From Syntrophaceae bacterium (lineage in GTDB: Bacteria > Desulfobacterota > Syntrophia > Syntrophales > UBA2185), in assembly GCA_003153775.1 (NCBI GenBank), contig PMBI01000046.1, forward strand, positions 1 through 64,000: DNA of 64,000 nt. The letters are read 5' to 3'. A program made the translations under genes and the position numbers. The notes under the pieces are model-generated. The model was not told where the DNA came from and searched no databases. It worked only from the letters and a program-made list of their open reading frames with translations. Below, piece after piece: positions 7,639 to 21,451 of the stretch (position 1 is the stretch's first letter; every line of letters starts with the position of its first letter).

Positions 7639-8297
7639 TGACAGGTTCAGAGTTTATTGCAGGTATCTTTCCGTATATAGCCGTCGCACTTTGCCTGCTC
7701 GGGACCGTTTGGCGGTTCGTGCGCTGGCTGTCGCTGCCGCCCCACGTGAAGTGGACCTTATACCCGGTGCCGGAAGGAATCGCGGGCCAGTTGAAATACA
7801 TGTTAAAGGAGATGTTCACCTTCGAGACCCTTTACAAATTCAACCGCCGCCTCTGGTTCGGGTCGTTCTCCATGCACATGGCGATGGCGGGTACTGTCCT
7901 TTTCTTCATCCTGTACCTTGCGGGGTGGTCAACGATTTTTGTCGTACAGTTGTGCCTCCTGGCCCTCGTGATTGCTGCAATCTATATCATCGGATTGCGC
8001 ATCTACGATAAGAACCTAAGGCTGCTTTCAAACTTCGAGGAATTTTTCAATCTGCTGTTTGTGGCAGGTGTGGCTGCTTTAGGATTCGCGGCCTCCGTGC
8101 CACATGTCTCCGTTTCTTTACGCCTGTACTTTCTGGGTTTGATCGAATTCCACCCCAACACGTCAGTCCTCTCCACAGTCCATATTCTGGCCGTGTTTCT
8201 CGGAGGACTTTTCTTGATGTATCTGCCGTTTAGCAAAATGATCCATTACGTCTCCAAGTACTTTACCTATCACCATATCAACTGGCAGAAAAAATGA
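7638..8297 (+). CDS. NarI-type cytochrome b membrane subunit, HmcE/DsrM-like
   Basis: 219 aa from ATG 7638, which overlaps the dsrC stop codon. A GTG nine bases upstream is possible but would lie inside dsrC. About five hydrophobic segments and paired histidines (HMAMAG, HILAVFLGG) fit the respiratory nitrate reductase gamma (heme b) fold. Its length matches HmcE (~225 aa) rather than DsrM (~330 aa), and a true DsrM is encoded separately at 9722. With the next gene it forms a two-protein quinone:thiol oxidoreductase module placed directly behind dsrC. Inferred role: passing menaquinol electrons to the cytoplasmic HdrD-like subunit. Confidence 0.8.
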   Translation: MTGSEFIAGIFPYIAVALCLLGTVWRFVRWLSLPPHVKWTLYPVPEGIAGQLKYMLKEMFTFETLYKFNRRLWFGSFSMHMAMAGTVLFFILYLAGWSTIFVVQLCLLALVIAAIYIIGLRIYDKNLRLLSNFEEFFNLLFVAGVAALGFAASVPHVSVSLRLYFLGLIEFHPNTSVLSTVHILAVFLGGLFLMYLPFSKMIHYVSKYFTYHHINWQKK

Positions 8298-13513: not shown

Positions 13514-14674
13514 ATGCTGGAAAAAGCGCTGACAGGTAGCCGCCGATATGGAATCTTGGTGGGCATCCTCCTTGCCCTCTTCGGGATGGGCGTGTATTTC
13601 TATCTCCGTCAGCTTGAGTACGGCCTGGGTCTTACCGGCATGAGCCGCGATGTCTCATGGGGATTGTACATATCTCAGTTCACCTTCCTGGTCGGGATCG
13701 CTGCTTCGGCGGTGATGGTCGTCCTCCCCTACTATCTGCATGACTACAAGGCATTCGGAAGGATCACGATCCTCGGGGAGTTTCTCGCCATAGCGGCCGT
13801 CATCATGTGCGTCACCTTCATCTTCGTCAATCTCGGCCAGCCCTCACGCGTCCTGTATGTCATGTTCTATCCGTCGCTCACATCGGTGCTCTTCTGGGAC
13901 ATGGTGGTGGTCAGCGTCTACCTCGTGCTCAACGTGATCACCGGCTGGACGGTTCTCTCCAGCGTAAAAGAAGGCGTCCCCCCGCCGGCCTGGGTAAAGC
14001 CATTTATCTATCTCTCCATCCCCTGGGCCATCAGCATCCATACGGTGACAGCTTTCATCTACGCCGGCATGCCCGGCAGGAGCTTCTGGCTCACGGCGAT
14101 CATGGCGCCCCGGTTCCTGGCCGCAGCCTTCGCTTCGGGCCCGGCGCTTCTGATCCTGTTGTGCTTCGTGCTCCGGCGCTTCGGCGGATTTGACGCCGGG
14201 AAAAAGGCGATAGACGCGTTAGCGACAATCGTCACCTATGCCTTCCTTACGACCATATTCTTCGTGGTAGTCGAACTGTGGACAGTTTTCTACAGTCAGG
14301 TTCCGGACGACATGGAGCATTACCGATTTCTCTTCGTGGGGCTCGATGGCTATAACACCATTGCACATGGGATGACTGTTGCCGTCATCGCCGCCGCGGC
14401 TGCCCTTGTGCTGCTCATCAATCCACGGACACGGAAGAAGGATTCCTTGCTGGCCGCGGCCTGCGTCCTGGTATTTCTTTCCCTCTGGATCGAAAAAGGT
14501 CTTGGCCTGATGGTGACCGGCTTCACCCCCTCGCCCTTAGGCCACCTCACCCGCTACACCCCCACCGGGCCGGAAGCGGCAATAGCCATAGGCATCTGGG
14601 CTATGGGGTTTCTGATTATCACGGTGCTTTACAAGATTTTTCTTTCTGTCCGGGAGGCGGCGGAGCTGGATTAG
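13514..14674 (+). CDS. dsrP: DsrP, NrfD-like integral membrane subunit
   Basis: 386 aa from ATG 13514, with a GAGG site 5-8 bp upstream; the longer in-frame ORF from 13361 overlaps dsrO and was not used. About ten transmembrane helices of the NrfD/PsrC family. It should interact with menaquinone on the periplasmic side with DsrO and DsrJ. It is the last gene of the dsr run; no hairpin terminator follows. Its final 141 bp (14534-14674) recur as diverged fragments at 18042-18143 and 18762-18902. Confidence 0.94.
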   Translation: MLEKALTGSRRYGILVGILLALFGMGVYFYLRQLEYGLGLTGMSRDVSWGLYISQFTFLVGIAASAVMVVLPYYLHDYKAFGRITILGEFLAIAAVIMCVTFIFVNLGQPSRVLYVMFYPSLTSVLFWDMVVVSVYLVLNVITGWTVLSSVKEGVPPPAWVKPFIYLSIPWAISIHTVTAFIYAGMPGRSFWLTAIMAPRFLAAAFASGPALLILLCFVLRRFGGFDAGKKAIDALATIVTYAFLTTIFFVVVELWTVFYSQVPDDMEHYRFLFVGLDGYNTIAHGMTVAVIAAAAALVLLINPRTRKKDSLLAAACVLVFLSLWIEKGLGLMVTGFTPSPLGHLTRYTPTGPEAAIAIGIWAMGFLIITVLYKIFLSVREAAELD

Positions 14675-14712
14675 GATCGTCAATCGGGCAGACGCAAAAC
14701 GCCTCATGTCGA

Positions 14713-14735
14713 TTCAATTCCCGGCCTCAGCACTA
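14713..14735 (+). repeat. Degenerate copy of the tRNA 3' end behind dsrP (att-like)
   Basis: These 23 bases match positions 1-23 at 20 of 23 sites (differences at copy positions 6, 17 and 22), including the acceptor 3' strand and CTA in place of CCA. The five bases before it do not complete a T-stem, so only the 3' tip of the tRNA is represented, as expected for an attachment-site copy. It lies in the 312-bp gap between dsrP and the sensor kinase start, which otherwise shows no gene. Confidence 0.55.
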
Positions 14736-14986
14736 AAACGCCAGACTTGATCATAGGCTTGTTTCTGATATCCTTGAAATCCGTTGTTCACAGAGACAAG
14801 AGGTTAACATCGGTAATTAATGTTCAAATCTATGATTTAGGTGTATAGACAATCTTGCAAAATTATATAGTTTGTAAAGTTACAGAGAGCTTAACATAAC
14901 TTTCTTAGTATAACTTTGACAATGAAAGAGCAAGCAAACCGGCAGACCGCAAGCTCTTGGGACTGGTGACTTCCATGGGAGCAAAT

Positions 14987-17900
14987 ATGTCTCTACCACA
15001 TGAAAGAAAGGGGAGAAGCATTCAGAGCAGATTGATCCTGCTACTCCTTCTTATTCTCATCCCTGTCTTGGCTATCCAATCCTACATGTATTATGACAGT
15101 TATCAGACTCGACGGACGTCGGAACTTCAGGCAAATCTGGAAATTGCCCGTTTACTCGCAAAGGCCTTTGAGTCATTTGTACAGGACGTCATCCATCAAG
15201 AGCTTGCAATAGGTGTTGCCATAACCTCTTCGCAGCCGATGCCTTCCAGGGACATCACTCGGCTCCTTGGGACGAGCCGGGACGATGTCGCCGTGCGCGA
15301 TTTCACCTGGATAAATCCTAAGGGTGTTGCGATCTATTCAAGTAATCCCGCCATGATCGGCATAAATTATGGTGACCGATCCTATTTTCGTGAAATCGTC
15401 AATGGCCGTGATTGGATGGTGGGTGAGCTCGTAATTGCGAAGAGTACAGGGGAACCGGTCTTTGGCATCTCGCGGGGCATTCGGGACGGCAAGGGCACTC
15501 TGCTCGGCATCGTCTTTGCTTCAATCATTCCCGAAAAATTAGATGCGCAGCTTGCTGTTGAAAGAAGCAAAGGCGGAGGTTACGCCATTGTCGATAACAA
15601 GGGCATGCTGGTCTATCGCTACCCTGCTATAGAGGCCACATGGGAAGAGCGTAACTGGCTCAAGCCGTATCCCGAGTTTGGAGAAGCACTCAAAGGGAAA
15701 GAGATTGCCACAACAGTTTATGCGCCCTACGAAGGAAAGAACCGGTTGGTTGGTTTTACTCCCATATCCTCTGTTGGCTGGGCTGCGAGTGCCGGAAAAA
15801 GGGAGGAGGATGTTACCGGGCCCATTCTCAGTTCCATTGGCAAGAATGCGCTTCTGTTTCTTTTCTTTTCGTTTGCCGCGTTTTTTGTCGCTTTAGCCGT
15901 TTCACGGAAAATCGCGAGCCCTGTTACGGCACTGCGCAATCATGCTCTTGCCTTAGGGCACGGGGAGCTGCCTGAGCAGGTGAAGATAAATCATATACTG
16001 GAATTCCAGGATCTGGCAGACGCCTTCAATACAATGGCCGAGAAGGTGCAGGCGCGCGAAATGGATCTGCGTGAGAGCGAGAAGCGTGAACGCGAGCGGG
16101 CAGCAGAGTTGGAAGCGATTTTCGTGGCGCATAATGATGCAACGCTCGTCTATGATACGGAGATGAATGTACGCTTAGTAACCCCGTCCTTCTTCACGAT
16201 CTACGGCTTCGATCCTATAGGCCTAAACGTTAGAGAGATTATCCAACGGGTTTCGTGCCGATGGCTGGATGGAAGACCTTTCAAATTGGAGGACCAGCCC
16301 ACACCACGAGCGCTCGCGGGGGAAAAAGTAACCGGGGCAATATTCGCAGTGAAGCGGGCCGATGGAACGGAGGCCGTAGTTGAAACCTCCTCCGGGCCTA
16401 TACTCATGGGAGACCATATCACTGGCTCGGTCACGGTTTGGCAGGACATCACCGAGCGCAAGCAGGCGGAGGAAAATCGACGACGAAGTGAGAATCGATT
16501 AAATGTTCTCATCGAGAACGTAAAATCAGGAGTGGCGCTGATCGATGATGCCGGTAAGTTCGGTATAGTTAACCCAGCATTTTTACTGATGTTCGGTCTT
16601 GAGGATAGGGAAACGATAAAGAGTATCAACGACCAGAATTGGGGCGATTGGCAGGTATTTGAAAGCGATGGGACTCTGTTGCACGTGGATGAACACCCCG
16701 TCCGAAAAGTTGCCCTGACAGGCAAAGCCGTCATAGATAAGTTGGTCGGCGTACGATTGCCGTCAGGCGGAGATCTCGTTTGGATGCTTATCAGTGCAGA
16801 TCCGATTCTTAGACCAGACGGAAGTATCGAATCAATAATATGCACTTACCATGACATCACCGACCGCAGGCGGGCCGAAGAGGCGCAATCGGCGCTGCTG
16901 AAAGAACTTCAGCAGGCGCATGAGGAGGCCATCCGCCAGCGCATACTCCTGGAAACGGTCATCGGCCAGATGCCCATCGGCCTGGTCGTGCTGGACCGTG
17001 AAGGGCAGACCATCGTGCGGAACGCGAAAGCGGAAGAGATGAGCCAGGAGCCGACCTATCGCGATTTTTTCCTGCATTATCATGGAACCTCAAAGTACCG
17101 CCGGGATGACGGCACTTTCTACCAAAGCGAAGATTTGCCCGCGGTGCGGGCGCTACGCAAGGGCGAGACGATAGTGGCCGCTTCCATGATCTTCGATGCG
17201 CCGGACGGAAGGGATGTACACCTGAGCATTAACTCCACTCCCTTGCTCGATCCTGAAGGCCGGATCACAGGCTCCGTATCCGTCTACTGGGACATCACCG
17301 AGCGCAAAAAGGCAGAACGAGCTATTGCAGAGCATGTGGCGAAGCTCGAAGAGATCAACAAGGAGCTCGAGAGCTTCAGCTACTCGATCTCCCACGACCT
17401 GCGTGCGCCCTTGCGCGCCATCGACGGCTATGCACGCATGCTTCTGAAGAAACACGGGCAGGAATTTGATGAAGACTCGATGCGCAAGTTTAATGACATA
17501 AGGTCAAACGCCCAGATGATGGGCAAGCTCATCGACGATATCTTGACTCTTTCCCGCCTGGGCAGGGCGAAGATGTCCGTAGTTGATCTAGAGATGGAAG
17601 GGATCATAAAGGATTTATGGAAGGAACAGCAGCACATCAACCCGAAAAGGAAGATGTCCTTGACTATTCAGTCCATGCCCTCCGGATATGGCGATAGAAC
17701 ACTTATCAAGCAGGTATATGCCAACCTTCTTGGCAATGCCGTCAAATTTACGAAGTTCAAGAATCCCGCGCAGATTGAGGCCGGGGGCTATACGGATGGG
17801 AATGAGAACGTGTACTATGTCAAAGACAACGGTGTCGGCTTTGACATGGCATACTACGACAAACTCTTCGGCATTTTTCAGAGGCTCCACAACAACCCCG

Positions 17901-18043
17901 ACTTCGAAGGCACGGGCGTTGGTCTCGCCATAATCCAGCGCGCCGTCCACATCCATGGTGGGCGTGTATGGGCGGAAGGCAAAGTAGATGAGGGGGCCAC
18001 GTTCTTTTTTTCACTGCCTTTATCATACACACGCACAAGATGA
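14987..18043 (+). CDS. Membrane sensor histidine kinase, dCache-HAMP-PAS-PAS-PAS-HisKA-HATPase
   Basis: 1018 aa from ATG 14987, chosen for the GGGAG site 8 bp upstream; in-frame starts at 14957 (TTG) and 14975 lack one. In order: TM helix (~residues 17-37), periplasmic double-Cache-like sensor (to ~285), second TM, HAMP, three PAS domains each ending in a DITER/DITDR signature, HisKA with SHDLRAPLRAID (phospho-acceptor His803), and HATPase_c with NLLGNAVKF, DNGVGFD and GTGVGLAI. It probably senses an extracytoplasmic small ligand plus internal signals. No response regulator is adjacent, so the partner is unknown. Its stop codon overlaps a dsrP-end fragment, indicating the gene arrived by recombination. 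Confidence 0.92.
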   Translation: MSLPHERKGRSIQSRLILLLLLILIPVLAIQSYMYYDSYQTRRTSELQANLEIARLLAKAFESFVQDVIHQELAIGVAITSSQPMPSRDITRLLGTSRDDVAVRDFTWINPKGVAIYSSNPAMIGINYGDRSYFREIVNGRDWMVGELVIAKSTGEPVFGISRGIRDGKGTLLGIVFASIIPEKLDAQLAVERSKGGGYAIVDNKGMLVYRYPAIEATWEERNWLKPYPEFGEALKGKEIATTVYAPYEGKNRLVGFTPISSVGWAASAGKREEDVTGPILSSIGKNALLFLFFSFAAFFVALAVSRKIASPVTALRNHALALGHGELPEQVKINHILEFQDLADAFNTMAEKVQAREMDLRESEKRERERAAELEAIFVAHNDATLVYDTEMNVRLVTPSFFTIYGFDPIGLNVREIIQRVSCRWLDGRPFKLEDQPTPRALAGEKVTGAIFAVKRADGTEAVVETSSGPILMGDHITGSVTVWQDITERKQAEENRRRSENRLNVLIENVKSGVALIDDAGKFGIVNPAFLLMFGLEDRETIKSINDQNWGDWQVFESDGTLLHVDEHPVRKVALTGKAVIDKLVGVRLPSGGDLVWMLISADPILRPDGSIESIICTYHDITDRRRAEEAQSALLKELQQAHEEAIRQRILLETVIGQMPIGLVVLDREGQTIVRNAKAEEMSQEPTYRDFFLHYHGTSKYRRDDGTFYQSEDLPAVRALRKGETIVAASMIFDAPDGRDVHLSINSTPLLDPEGRITGSVSVYWDITERKKAERAIAEHVAKLEEINKELESFSYSISHDLRAPLRAIDGYARMLLKKHGQEFDEDSMRKFNDIRSNAQMMGKLIDDILTLSRLGRAKMSVVDLEMEGIIKDLWKEQQHINPKRKMSLTIQSMPSGYGDRTLIKQVYANLLGNAVKFTKFKNPAQIEAGGYTDGNENVYYVKDNGVGFDMAYYDKLFGIFQRLHNNPDFEGTGVGLAIIQRAVHIHGGRVWAEGKVDEGATFFFSLPLSYTRTR

Positions 18044-18143
18044 AGTGGCCATCGCCATCGGCATCTGGACCATGGGGTTTCTGATTATCACGATGCTTTA
18101 CAAGATTCTTCTCTCCGTCCGGGAAGCGGCGGAACTGGATTAG
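18042..18143 (+). pseudogene. dsrP 3'-end fragment, copy 2
   Basis: 34 codons, reading EVAIAIGIWTMGFLII and onward to AAELD-stop, aligned with the last 34 codons of dsrP (14573-14674) with about 12 differences in 102 bp, mostly synonymous. There is no start codon or ribosome binding site. It begins inside the stop codon of the sensor kinase. The synonymous bias means it diverged as a functional dsrP before being truncated here. Confidence 0.88.
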
Positions 18144-18219
18144 ATGACTTGGCTGTAGTCATGTCCGAGTGATTTGTTCTTTCACACGAGATTTCAAATG
18201 CCAATCGTGATAATCAGAA
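18079..18219. repeat. 16-bp inverted repeat derived from dsrP sequence
   Basis: TTCTGATTATCACGAT at 18079-18094, inside dsrP-fragment copy 2, has its exact reverse complement at 18204-18219 in the noncoding DNA before the DUF5329-like gene. The arms are about 110 bp apart, and no T-run follows. It looks like a rearrangement scar rather than a terminator. Confidence 0.6.
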
Positions 18220-18295
18220 CGTGAAAAGGGCATTTGAATAAGTTCCATCCCGCATAATTAGTCGTGAGGGTTCGTCGCAATTTACAGAGGAAAAC

Positions 18296-18661
18296 ATGAA
18301 AAAAATATTGGTCACATCATTTGTAATCTTGGCGCTATTTTCCGTGGTGGTCAATGCACAAGATAATATTGAAAAAGAGAAAATCGAATTTTTAATATCT
18401 TCAGTTGAGAATTTAGAAGGGGCCAAATTTATTAGAAACGGCACAGAGCATGATGGCAAAGAAGCCGCAGATCATTTACGAATGAAACTTCAAAGCGATG
18501 TTGGTATGGTCCAAACCGCTGATGATTTTATAAGGCTGTGTGCTTCACAATCTTATATTTCGGGAGAACCGTATCTGATCAGATTACCTGGTGGGAAAAC
18601 CATAAAATCAGAACAATATTTTCGGGAAAAGCTAAAGGAGTATAATTCAACCGCAAAGTGA
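18296..18661 (+). CDS. Small secreted protein, DUF5329-like
   Basis: 121 aa. A cleavable signal peptide (MKKILVTSFVILALFSVVVNAQ) precedes a ~100-aa mature domain with the pattern KIEFLISSVENLEGAKFIRNG, AADHLRMKL and SGEPYLIR, which I recall from DUF5329 proteins of unknown function. A GAGGAAAAC site precedes ATG 18296. The gene is clearly more AT-rich than the dsr genes and lies between two dsrP-end fragments, so it is likely part of the same recombination history. No function can be assigned. Confidence 0.75.
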   Translation: MKKILVTSFVILALFSVVVNAQDNIEKEKIEFLISSVENLEGAKFIRNGTEHDGKEAADHLRMKLQSDVGMVQTADDFIRLCASQSYISGEPYLIRLPGGKTIKSEQYFREKLKEYNSTAK

Positions 18662-18761
18662 ATGCGCCTGACAACTGATTAAAGCTGACGGTTACTTTGG
18701 TTCACGCATCTTGCTTGTTCCGGCATGGTTAAGATCCTGGGCCGGGATCAAAAAAAGCGCG

Positions 18762-18902
18762 CCCCTTGGGCACATCACCCGCTACACCCCTACCAGGCCG
18801 GAAGTGGCAATAGCCATCGGCATCTGGGCCATGGGGTTTCTGATTATCACAGTGCTTTACAAGATTTTTCTCTCCGTCAGGGAGGCGGCGGAGCTGGATT
18901 AG
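18762..18902 (+). pseudogene. dsrP 3'-end fragment, copy 3, with 3' flank
   Basis: 47 codons from PLGHITRYTPTRPE to the AAELD stop, matching dsrP 14534-14674 with about 13 differences in 141 bp; only three change the amino acid (L to I, G to R, A to V). Similarity continues past the stop for some 85 bp, including a diverged counterpart (18942-18964, 16/23 to the tRNA tip) of the 14713-14735 element. An apparent 63-aa ORF from 18711 has no ribosome binding site and is not treated as a gene. The remaining ~210 bp to 19199 show no gene. Confidence 0.88.
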
Positions 18903-19199
18903 ATGTGTTGACGGTGCAGCTGTAATCAGACTGCATGTCTATTTGAGTACCGACATCAGCGCCATAGACATCAAGCTTGATCATAAACTTCTTCCTGTAC
19001 TCAATAATTCTTCAACTATGATAGGATGCTACATTCCAAACGGCAATAATAGATAGGCATCTTCTCCCTGATTATGATATGAAACACATCAGTACGATGA
19101 TGATTCACACCTAAGTGTTAAACAATGGCATGTTTGCGTAGCCCATTAGACGGACTTTGAGTCGCCTTATACAGACTGTATATTCTTAGGGAGACTAAC

Positions 19200-19979
19200 A
19201 TGCACTACATTGCAAAGACATTACTTGCTGATGCGGAAGCAGCTATTAACAAATCATTCATTCAGAACAAAATAAATCACAAAAATTTGCGTGGTACTCT
19301 GAGAGAGGATATCCTGCTTGCATTCATGGAAACTAGGCGCCCTTATTTCCTTGAGCCAGGAAAAGGTACGATAATCGACACAAGAGATCAGGAACAGTAC
19401 GAAGGGGAAGATGATGTTATCTTGTACGACAAAGAAATTACTCCTGCCATAAAAATATGCTCCCGTGGCACAAACGGAGTCTATCACTATAATGGAGTAC
19501 TTGGTAGAATAGAGGTCAAATCTAGTCTTGAGGCAGAGGACTACCTTCAGTTTGTTAAACGCAGCCAAGCTGTCGCTCAGTTCAGAGTTGATGTGCGTTC
19601 AGAACCCAAGGGAATAGAAGGAGCATATAATTATTTGTTTGGGTATGATTCAAGAGCAAAAGATAAGCACGAGATCATGCGTTTCTATGAAGCATGTCAA
19701 AAAAGTGGAATGGACCCGGTATCTGGAAAAGTTAGTATAATCTGTGTTCTTGGAAAAGGAATTTATAGACTGCACCATGACGGAAGACGTGGATTTTGGC
19801 AATGTGCAAGAGCGGATGAAACGAAGGCACAGCAATTGGTACGCTTTGTTGCAATGGTCAGTGAAATGTCTCTTCAATTACATATTAAGCGTATCGGCCG
19901 AATCGTTAAGGACTCTTTAGAAATTTCAATTGGCAATTTTTTGTGGGAACCCAATTGGGAAGAAGTTATATTGACCTAA
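19200..19979 (+). CDS. Hypothetical protein with PD-(D/E)XK-like motif (DUF6602-like)
   Basis: 259 aa. The segment EGEDDVILYDKE (residues 68-79) followed by VLGRIEVKSSL (100-110) fits a PD-(D/E)XK nuclease core with D71/D72, E105 and K107. The N-terminal helical part and this layout recall DUF6602 proteins, which often sit in defence or mobile regions. No methyltransferase, helicase or other partner is beside it, so it is an orphan. AGGGAG lies 8 bp before ATG 19200. A TTGAGT-16-TATATT promoter-like pair at 19157-19184 would leave almost no leader. Base composition is markedly AT-rich compared with its neighbours, a sign of transfer. Nuclease activity is inferred only. Confidence 0.6.
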   Translation: MHYIAKTLLADAEAAINKSFIQNKINHKNLRGTLREDILLAFMETRRPYFLEPGKGTIIDTRDQEQYEGEDDVILYDKEITPAIKICSRGTNGVYHYNGVLGRIEVKSSLEAEDYLQFVKRSQAVAQFRVDVRSEPKGIEGAYNYLFGYDSRAKDKHEIMRFYEACQKSGMDPVSGKVSIICVLGKGIYRLHHDGRRGFWQCARADETKAQQLVRFVAMVSEMSLQLHIKRIGRIVKDSLEISIGNFLWEPNWEEVILT

Positions 19980-20045
19980 CAATCAAATGCAGCGTACCGG
20001 TAAACCCGCCGCTTATTTGAGCTGTTACACCATTCATGAAATAAT

Positions 20046-20054
20046 TGGTATAAT
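20046..20054 (+). promoter_or_regulatory. Extended -10 promoter
   Basis: TGGTATAAT fits the extended -10 consensus TGnTATAAT perfectly. No convincing -35 box is needed or seen. Predicted transcription start is near 20061, about 40 nt before ATG 20102, and would drive the lipoprotein and the H1-like gene. Confidence 0.45.
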
Positions 20055-20101
20055 GTTTCCACAATGATCAAGGCGGGAGTTACATATTAGGGAGGTCTTT
20101 T

Positions 20102-20842
20102 ATGAGCGAACTTGAACGGAAGAACAGACATCATCACAAACCAACAAATATCGAAAGAGAGAAGGGCGGTTATATGTCAGGCATACTTTCTAAAGCCCTC
20201 CTGCTCATATTCATATTGGCCGGTCTCACTGCCTGCTCGCCCGCTGTCTATCACGTCAACCTGAAGTATGAGCCGGCGGGACAAATTCTGAAGCCGGAAA
20301 AAACCGGACCAGATATTGCTATTACAGTTGCCATGTTTAACGATATCCGAAAGGTCGATGACACGCTTGTCCTGGGCAGGGTTACGACTCTGGAGGGCGA
20401 CCGGATCCCCATTCTGCCAAGATATAATAAAGCGACCGATGCTGTGACTACAAGCGTCAGGGAATATCTTTTCAAGTCGGGCTACAACGTCTCAAAAGCC
20501 ATGCCCGTTTGGGACTTAAAGGAAGAAACGATCGGCAAAGACTGGGGGAGAATATTGATTGGCGGCAATATCGACGACCTCGAGATTATTTGCGCGAAAT
20601 CGTTCCCGGCGAAAACTTATCAAACTAAGATCAAACTAACCTTCCTCTTTGCCAATGTTCCTGATAAGAAAATATTTTATCGCGCAAGCGTGGAAAATAG
20701 CAATTCTCTGAAGGATGTTTCGTTTTCTGAAGAATTGTTGGAAAAGCAGATAAATGCAGTGCTTTCAGATGCTCTGGACAAAATGTTTAACGATCCGAAA
20801 ATGAAAAAGACAATCGAGGAAGGAGCCAAGATTAAGAAATAG
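20102..20842 (+). CDS. Putative outer-membrane-type lipoprotein
   Basis: 246 aa from ATG 20102, which has a good AGGGAGG site. An internal ATG at 20174 with GAAGGGCGG upstream would give a 222-aa protein starting directly with the lipoprotein signal MSGILSKALLLIFILAGLTAC (lipobox LTAC). The signal peptide favours the internal start and the ribosome binding site favours the outer one. The mature part has no domain I recognise by name; its layout (lipobox, ~190-aa soluble alpha/beta domain, KIFYRASVEN region) resembles YajG/LptE-like small lipoproteins, which is only an impression. Next gene 36 bp downstream. Confidence 0.65.
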   Translation: MSELERKNRHHHKPTNIEREKGGYMSGILSKALLLIFILAGLTACSPAVYHVNLKYEPAGQILKPEKTGPDIAITVAMFNDIRKVDDTLVLGRVTTLEGDRIPILPRYNKATDAVTTSVREYLFKSGYNVSKAMPVWDLKEETIGKDWGRILIGGNIDDLEIICAKSFPAKTYQTKIKLTFLFANVPDKKIFYRASVENSNSLKDVSFSEELLEKQINAVLSDALDKMFNDPKMKKTIEEGAKIKK

Positions 20843-20878
20843 TGTAACATGAATGAAGAGAAAGGAGGAAAACAGGCG

Positions 20879-21451
20879 ATGGCAAAGGCGTCTATCAGCA
20901 AAAAGAAACGGATTGCAAAGAAAAGTGTGAAGAAGGCGCAGGTAAAAAGCAAGAAGTCTGCGACGAAAAAAAATATAAAGAAAGCGGCGCCCAAGGGGAA
21001 GAAGCCGGTGGCGAAAAAGGCTGTGAAGAAGGCTGCACCGAAGACTGCAAAGCGGGTGGTAAAAAAAGCCGTGAAGAAGGCGGCGCCCAAGAAGAAAAAG
21101 CCGGCGGCAAAGAAGGCCGTGAAAAAAGCTGCACCGAAGACTGCAAAGCGGGCGGTAAAGAAAGCCATGAAGAAGGCAGCGCCCAAGAAGAAGCCGGTTG
21201 CGAAAAAGACAGTGAAAAGAGCGGCGCCAAAGATCGCAAAACCGGCGGTGAAAAAGCCTGTCGCGATAGCGCTACCAAAGCCCCAAGCACCGGTAGTAAG
21301 ACCGGAAGTAAAAGAAGAAATGAAGGCCACGGTTGTCGAGAAATCCCAATGGCCTGTATTGAAAAGCGGGCCACACCGGGAAGTGCAGGGAACCTGGGAA
21401 TTCTCGGTCAAGAATCCAAACATTGCCGCGCTTAGATTTTTGAAACTCTAA
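20879..21451 (+). CDS. Lysine/alanine-rich histone H1-like protein
   Basis: 190 aa from ATG 20879. An upstream in-frame ATG at 20849 was rejected because the AAAGGAGG ribosome binding site would then be coding. Residues ~1-135 consist of degenerate KKAAPK / VAKKAVKK repeats with almost only K, A, P, V and T, typical of bacterial H1/AlgP-like nucleoid proteins. The last ~30 residues (VQGTWEFSVKNPNIAALRFLKL) are a distinct globular-looking tail. It is expected to bind DNA or RNA non-specifically. The repeat DNA itself contains near-identical units prone to length change. Confidence 0.8.
   Translation: MAKASISKKKRIAKKSVKKAQVKSKKSATKKNIKKAAPKGKKPVAKKAVKKAAPKTAKRVVKKAVKKAAPKKKKPAAKKAVKKAAPKTAKRAVKKAMKKAAPKKKPVAKKTVKRAAPKIAKPAVKKPVAIALPKPQAPVVRPEVKEEMKATVVEKSQWPVLKSGPHREVQGTWEFSVKNPNIAALRFLKL

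Follow-up and report, generated by a model that had tools for sequence, protein, structure and literature searches.

The window analysed here is a 64,000-nucleotide stretch of a Syntrophaceae bacterium genome (GenBank assembly GCA_003153775.1, contig PMBI01000046.1, positions 1 to 64,000 of the forward strand). It contains an intact dsrP gene and, downstream of it, two further copies of the dsrP 3' end separated by cargo genes. Coordinates without a contig label are window positions, and "end positions" are counted within the 141-bp dsrP 3' end. The genome containing the window (G000; 3.13 Mb, 98 contigs) was compared with three other genomes of its genus (G001, G002 and G003), all of which have dsrP, and a wider survey covered 155 genomes of the class.

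Three copies of the dsrP 3' end and their cargo

The dsrP gene (13514–14674), which belongs to sulfite reduction, encodes an NrfD-family membrane subunit of 386 amino acids (Pfam NrfD, E 7e-35). It closes what gene order and translations indicate to be a dsrMKJOP-like run. Copy 1 is the 3' end within this intact gene (14534–14674), and copies 2 and 3 are the terminal 102 bp (18042–18143) and 141 bp (18762–18902) of a dsrP. Copies 2 and 3 start 39 bp apart within the dsrP end. All array features, including cargo and flanks, are on the plus strand, and the copies fall within 4.4 kb. A BLAST search with the 141 bp over the 3.13 Mb of G000 found exactly these three places and no others, and a 30-base probe from the dsrP end gave three matches in the window, whereas 100 shuffles averaged 0.00. 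The displaced tails comprise 33–46 codons and have no evident function.

Copies 1 and 3 differ at 13 of 141 positions (10 synonymous), copies 1 and 2 at 12 of 102 (7 synonymous), and copies 2 and 3 at 9 of 102 (6 synonymous), and the longest exact match between copies is 21–23 bp. Against a random synonymous fraction of 0.264, the one-sided binomial p values for the synonymous excess were 2e-4, 0.019 and 0.013, respectively. Most of the divergence therefore predates the loss of coding. These results agree with the original prediction, made from the sequence alone, in the coordinates of the three ends, in the counts of 13/141 and 12/102, and in its proposal that the copies diverged while still coding. 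With 88–91% DNA identity and mostly synonymous differences, the fragments are pieces of dsrP and not independent NrfD paralogues, one of the two refutations that the prediction had named for itself. Copy 2 has five bases that are private relative to the other copies and the genus members (sites 51, 67, 91, 106 and 123). Three of them alter an amino acid, as would be expected of a drifting fragment.

Two different flanks follow the copies. Flank B lies behind copy 1 (14675–14766) and copy 3 (18903–18997), and about 95 bp of it are also found 3' of dsrP in G002 and G003. Copies 1 and 3 with their flanks are 79.4% identical over 238 bp, the coding part included, and the flank by itself reaches a score of 31, where 200 shuffles gave at most 25; the shared flank, previously put at about 85 bp, is real but diverged. 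Copy 2 is followed by flank A (18144–18250). Most of flank B is missing from it, and it is the flank found 3' of dsrP in G001. Copy 2 and the G001 dsrP end thus appear to share a derived feature, suggesting that a flank-A end once stood on an intact dsrP in this lineage.

The first cargo gene (14957–18043) encodes a sensor kinase with a dCache-HAMP-PAS-HisKA-HATPase architecture, and its stop codon abuts copy 2. The second cargo segment (18267–18769) contains a gene for a small secreted DUF5329 protein (18296–18661; PF17263, E 8e-27). The identities proposed earlier for both proteins were upheld by these domain matches. A third cargo gene beyond copy 3 (19200–19979) encodes a DUF6602, PD-(D/E)XK nuclease-like protein (Pfam; PADLOC PD_DExK, E 2e-15).

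The origin of the DUF5329 segment can be followed outside the dsr locus. Positions 18267–18769 match contig C118 of G003 at 93% identity (503 bp), and 18267–18672 match a further genome, G004, at 85%. The sole dsrP-end match of G003 is on a contig other than C118 and G004 has none, so the DUF5329 parent is unlinked to dsrP. Past 18769, C118 diverges while the window runs on as dsrP. The junction with copy 3 (18760–18769, CGCCCCTTGG) is identical at 10 of 10 bases in C118 and at 9 of 10 in G003 dsrP. The DUF5329/copy 3 join is therefore a microhomology join, with 9–10 shared bases.

An accessory-gene hotspot between dsrP and a lipoprotein gene

The right border of the variable region is a conserved lipoprotein gene (open reading frame (ORF) 20102–20842) with its upstream region (20083–20842); synteny resumes at 20083–20089 in G002 and G003 and at 20644 in G001. 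The dsrP and lipoprotein borders are kept in all four genus genomes, and the contents differ in each. G000 has the kinase, DUF5329 and DUF6602 genes; G002 has one DUF2971 gene; G003 has an RRM gene, further small genes and a DUF2971 gene different from that of G002. In G001, 107 bp of flank A run directly into the middle of the lipoprotein gene, which represents a deletion. With conserved flanking genes and differing content, the dsrP–lipoprotein stretch is an integrase-free accessory-gene hotspot in these four genomes. Six proteins were scanned with PADLOC: the kinase, the DUF5329 protein, the G002 DUF2971 protein and a 157-amino-acid G003 protein gave no match at E 0.001, and the G003 DUF2971 protein matched PDC-S31 profiles. 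Together with the nuclease-like match of DUF6602, this indicates that the variable region carries some defence-like cargo.

Extra dsrP ends are rare. Of the 155 class genomes, 46 have a dsrP-end match, and clear extra pieces were found in two of these 46: two in G000 and one of 54 bp in G002. The remaining irregular cases were a marginal 25-position match in G136 (E 6e-5), second full-length matches in six genomes, which were taken as paralogues, and single matches in a shortened frame in G051 and G099. For the downstream search, 44 loci were fetched (1.4–9.0 kb downstream per locus), the 44th being the 54-bp piece of G002. The other 43, among them those of G001–G003 and G051, had no second dsrP end; a single 26-nt match (E 0.005) among them was attributed to chance. 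The suggested search for dsrP followed by cargo and a second end thus returned the G000 pattern and the unlinked G002 piece, and the pattern did not recur at the 43 other loci. As a control, local repeats were listed in 366,613 bp of G000, or 12% of its genome. Of 21 pairs lying no more than 10 kb apart, three were the dsrP copies. The one further pair recognised as resembling a gene 3' end was that on contig C4, described below, and no other duplicated protein-gene end was recognised, some repeat pairs being left uninspected. The 54-bp piece (G002:C45:5743-5796, minus strand) is 93% identical to copy 3 and 89% to G002 dsrP and sits in otherwise unrelated sequence, unlinked to the G002 dsr operon. 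It lies between what we take to be BON-like and PAS-like ORFs.

The interval also contains dispersed repeats. A shortened copy of a leader-like element lies inside and just past flank A (18189–18270), close to the start of that flank. The full element is about 157 nt long with a conserved core (AATCGTGATAATCA), and many copies are followed by a terminator-like hairpin, which shows little covariation. Members of the model built for it, R1, include G000:C60:20588-20740, G000:C10:28501-28652 and G002:C288:1728-1877, besides others. Each of G000–G003 has 10–22 matches, five other genomes of the family have 4–18 apiece, and 30 of 60 relatives have one or more; eight of the matches are the model's own sequences. 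For 12 of 13 copies, a same-strand ORF of at least 60 amino acids, often for an exported protein, begins −11 to +204 nt past the element, a count made without a control. Nine loci gave no Rfam match at the gathering threshold, and the only Rfam matches in window positions 14500–20200 were two sub-threshold ones (E 0.18–0.19), treated as chance. We regard the element as a candidate family of regulatory leaders or promoters. An attC site of integron-like cassettes was considered for the flank A repeat and rejected, the repeat being 5' of same-strand genes and often ending in a terminator-like hairpin. A 16-bp exact inverted match connects the dsrP tail of copy 2 (18079–18094, TTCTGATTATCACGAT) with the leader-like element in flank A (18204–18219), possibly by chance. 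Another dispersed repeat (18988–19064) begins at the end of flank B and opens with TTCTTCCTGTA, resembling the start of the leader-like element; copies of 89–91% identity are found at G003:C195:390-460 and G002:C162:5438-5494.

Beyond the lipoprotein gene, a Lys/Ala-rich ORF with internal repeats (20849–21451) encodes 200 amino acids, and its relatives are shorter, with 156 in G002 and 155 in G003. It is histone H1-like and had no Pfam match.

Probable origin of the displaced ends

We regard it as rather probable that the array was built by at least two successive additive integrations, in each of which homology paired the dsrP side, an illegitimate join closed the other side and the older dsrP end was pushed downstream. 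The copies are most likely scars of ordinary recombination with related bacteria and not of a dedicated mobile element. In each event, incoming DNA made up of a dsrP end plus cargo, presumably taken up from such donors, would pair with the resident dsr locus by homology, and its cargo end would join illegitimately within the tail of the resident dsrP, at a point of little or no homology. The dsrP gene would remain intact because the newcomer brings its own end, while the older end stays downstream as a fragment. A first event would have inserted the DUF5329 segment and left copy 3; a second, presumably analogous, would have inserted the kinase and left copy 2, the flank-A end of G000 being displaced as the kinase came with a flank-B end. 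Two routes may be envisaged: (i) homology-facilitated illegitimate recombination of linear DNA, or (ii) a linear fragment that loses part of its homologous end, recircularises and integrates by a single crossover that duplicates part of the 3' end.

Comparison with G001 supports the involvement of diverged dsr loci. In the last 102 bp, copy 3 differs from G001 dsrP at 3 positions and from copy 1 at 7, so the proposed check for a fragment closer to another species' dsrP than to the local gene came out positive for copy 3. With G001 as the reference there are 13 usable sites: at end positions 4–34 copy 1 agrees with G001 (6/6), and at 44–118 copy 3 does so (7/7). The maximum-chi-square permutation p value was 0.0014. 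Sites 4 and 6 may derive from the DUF5329 side of the join, and without them p was 0.006 (11 sites). Such a reciprocal mosaic is predicted by a single crossover between resident and incoming dsrP ends and, if real, favours route (ii). On site counts, on which the dsr-operon comparison rests, G000 and G001 are 91.3% identical over dsrK–P (3961 bp) versus 97.7% over the 1.8 kb immediately downstream; per kilobase, the values are 87.6–93.3% at 7–14.7 kb and 90.8–98.5% at 21–62 kb. This step would be consistent with one of the two lineages having acquired a diverged dsr allele from outside.

Several observations weigh against this account. The mosaic signal consists of 13 (or 11) sites and was significant in one of nine triples; tests with G002 or G003 as the reference, or with copy 2, gave no significant result. 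The whole dsrP gene differs from that of G001 by 7.5% (87/1161) along its length, so copy 1 can be read as a non-mosaic local allele, in which case only the 3' part of copy 3 may need to count as native. Bootstrap values in the tree of dsrP ends were 21–75, and the sources of the copies are therefore not settled by the tree. Identity steps are not unique to the dsr locus: in G000:C6:1-20000, identity to G001 drops at about 10 kb from 95–98% to 80–91%, the lower values extending over roughly 10 kb, which suggests mosaic ancestry there. With flank A behind the G001 dsrP and flank B behind copy 3, one or more additional exchanges or deletions must belong to the history. Possible homology at the kinase/copy 2 join amounts to a few bases at most. 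Similarity among the kinase paralogues extends through the C-terminus as far as the stop codon, and the native downstream sequence of the kinase was not found. As for DNA uptake, a ComEC-family protein was found in G000 and none in G001, and such a protein does not prove competence.

Site-specific integrative elements that targeted the dsrP 3' end could yield the same topology, had each brought a replacement end, left the displaced end at its far side and since lost its integrase. Copy 2 begins at end position 40, within the copy 1/3 switch interval (35–43), which would suit such elements, as would the dsrP piece elsewhere in G002 and a comparable arrangement in G000. On contig C4, two diverged repeats (80%; G000:C4:7107-7221 and 8027-8137) bracket a response-regulator-like ORF about 5 kb from a tyrosine recombinase (C4:1401–1862). 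We take the repeats to resemble the 3' end of a transfer-messenger RNA (tmRNA) gene, although ARAGORN found no gene there; they are probably remnants of an island at ssrA. The C4 arrangement resembles an integrase-type duplication, whereas the dsrP array has no recombinase nearby and copy starts 39 bp apart, with no constant crossover position. G000 encodes three tyrosine recombinases, on C37, C77 and C4 and not on the window contig, and no resolvase-family protein. No recombinase was found between dsrP and the lipoprotein gene in G000, nor any tyrosine-recombinase match on the dsrP contigs of the four genus genomes. The copy 3 join is accounted for by similarity to the unlinked DUF5329 locus, and an attachment-site core would not need the approximately 95 bp beyond the gene that copies 1 and 3 have in common. 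Such elements are accordingly unlikely. Of the two sources of repeated cargo uptake next to dsrP offered in the original prediction, elements recognising the dsrP end were thus not supported, although they keep a small probability, and recombination involving diverged dsr loci was retained, in view of the hotspot and the proximity of copy 3 to G001.

It is also quite unlikely that the dsrP end was duplicated in tandem at this locus, with unrelated insertions and drift afterwards. The shared orientation of the copies within 4.4 kb fits such a duplication, as does the base at site 60 that is common to copies 1–3 and not seen in G001–G003. Nevertheless, the last 102 bp of copy 3 are nearer to G001 than to copy 1, the flank of copy 2 is that of G001 and not that of copy 1, and the synonymous excess places the divergence mostly before pseudogenisation.

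A misassembly is unlikely, and we give very little credence to an artefact in which strain variants of the dsr locus were joined in a metagenome bin. The genus relatives are metagenome-assembled genomes and the window's genome is in 98 contigs; nonetheless, exact matches of at most 21–23 bp between copies and 10 bp at the DUF5329 join are shorter than usual assembly overlaps, and the flank of copy 2 is matched in the independent assembly G001. Finally, the copy 1/3 switch and the copy 2 start lie within about 10 bp of each other, which could reflect a preferred breakpoint or chance; given this near coincidence and the 54-bp piece moved in G002, a preferred break or recombination point in the dsrP 3' tail (end positions 35–44; 14567–14577, CCGGGCCGGAAG), acting as an integrase-free cargo capture site, was considered and is held to be highly improbable.

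Comparison with known systems

The dsrP array is confirmed as an unusual scar, left by an ordinary process, and reveals no new mobile element. Its value lies in its legibility as a natural scar of additive recombination: a partial parent sequence exists for comparison, one junction is readable, and the order of events is preserved in the displaced ends. It also illustrates how conserved respiratory operons may be exchanged along with unrelated sensor or defence-like cargo. A narrow literature search returned no prior account of dsrP fragments or dsrP recombination, and this search is the sole basis for our impression that the array is unpublished.

Genomic islands insert in the 3' end of tRNA or tmRNA genes and duplicate that end. 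The duplicated 3' end beyond the cargo is the likeness to dsrP; the difference is that the dsrP locus lacks an integrase and a constant crossover point. The same displacement logic has reportedly been published already for Rhs loci.

Hotspots that lack integrases and recombine at their flanking core genes have been well documented (PMC5635113). They resemble the dsrP locus in their core-gene borders, fast cargo turnover, absence of a recognisable mobile element and raised diversity in the flanking core gene; they differ in that the model proposed for them, double homologous recombination, leaves no gene-end scars (PMC5635113). In Escherichia coli conjugation, homology-facilitated illegitimate recombination occurred at very low frequency, and recircularisation followed by a single crossover was commoner (56 of 60 clones), with duplications of 109–950 bp in 14 sequenced clones (PMC3240628). 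The partial 3'-end duplication and its size class of 109–950 bp are as at dsrP, although that was a laboratory plasmid system with a selected marker (PMC3240628). Natural transformation with such joins has been reviewed (PMC6382021). For the type VI secretion system effector–immunity arrays of Vibrio cholerae, homology-facilitated illegitimate recombination has been proposed, in which one end is homologous, the other is joined without homology, and old 3' ends are shifted back (PMC5361080). As proposed for dsrP, a homologous upstream anchor and an illegitimate downstream join add a module while the older 3' part moves downstream; the Vibrio arrays have displaced immunity genes and a variable anchor gene, whereas the dsrP locus has displaced tails of 33–46 codons and a conserved respiratory anchor (PMC5361080).
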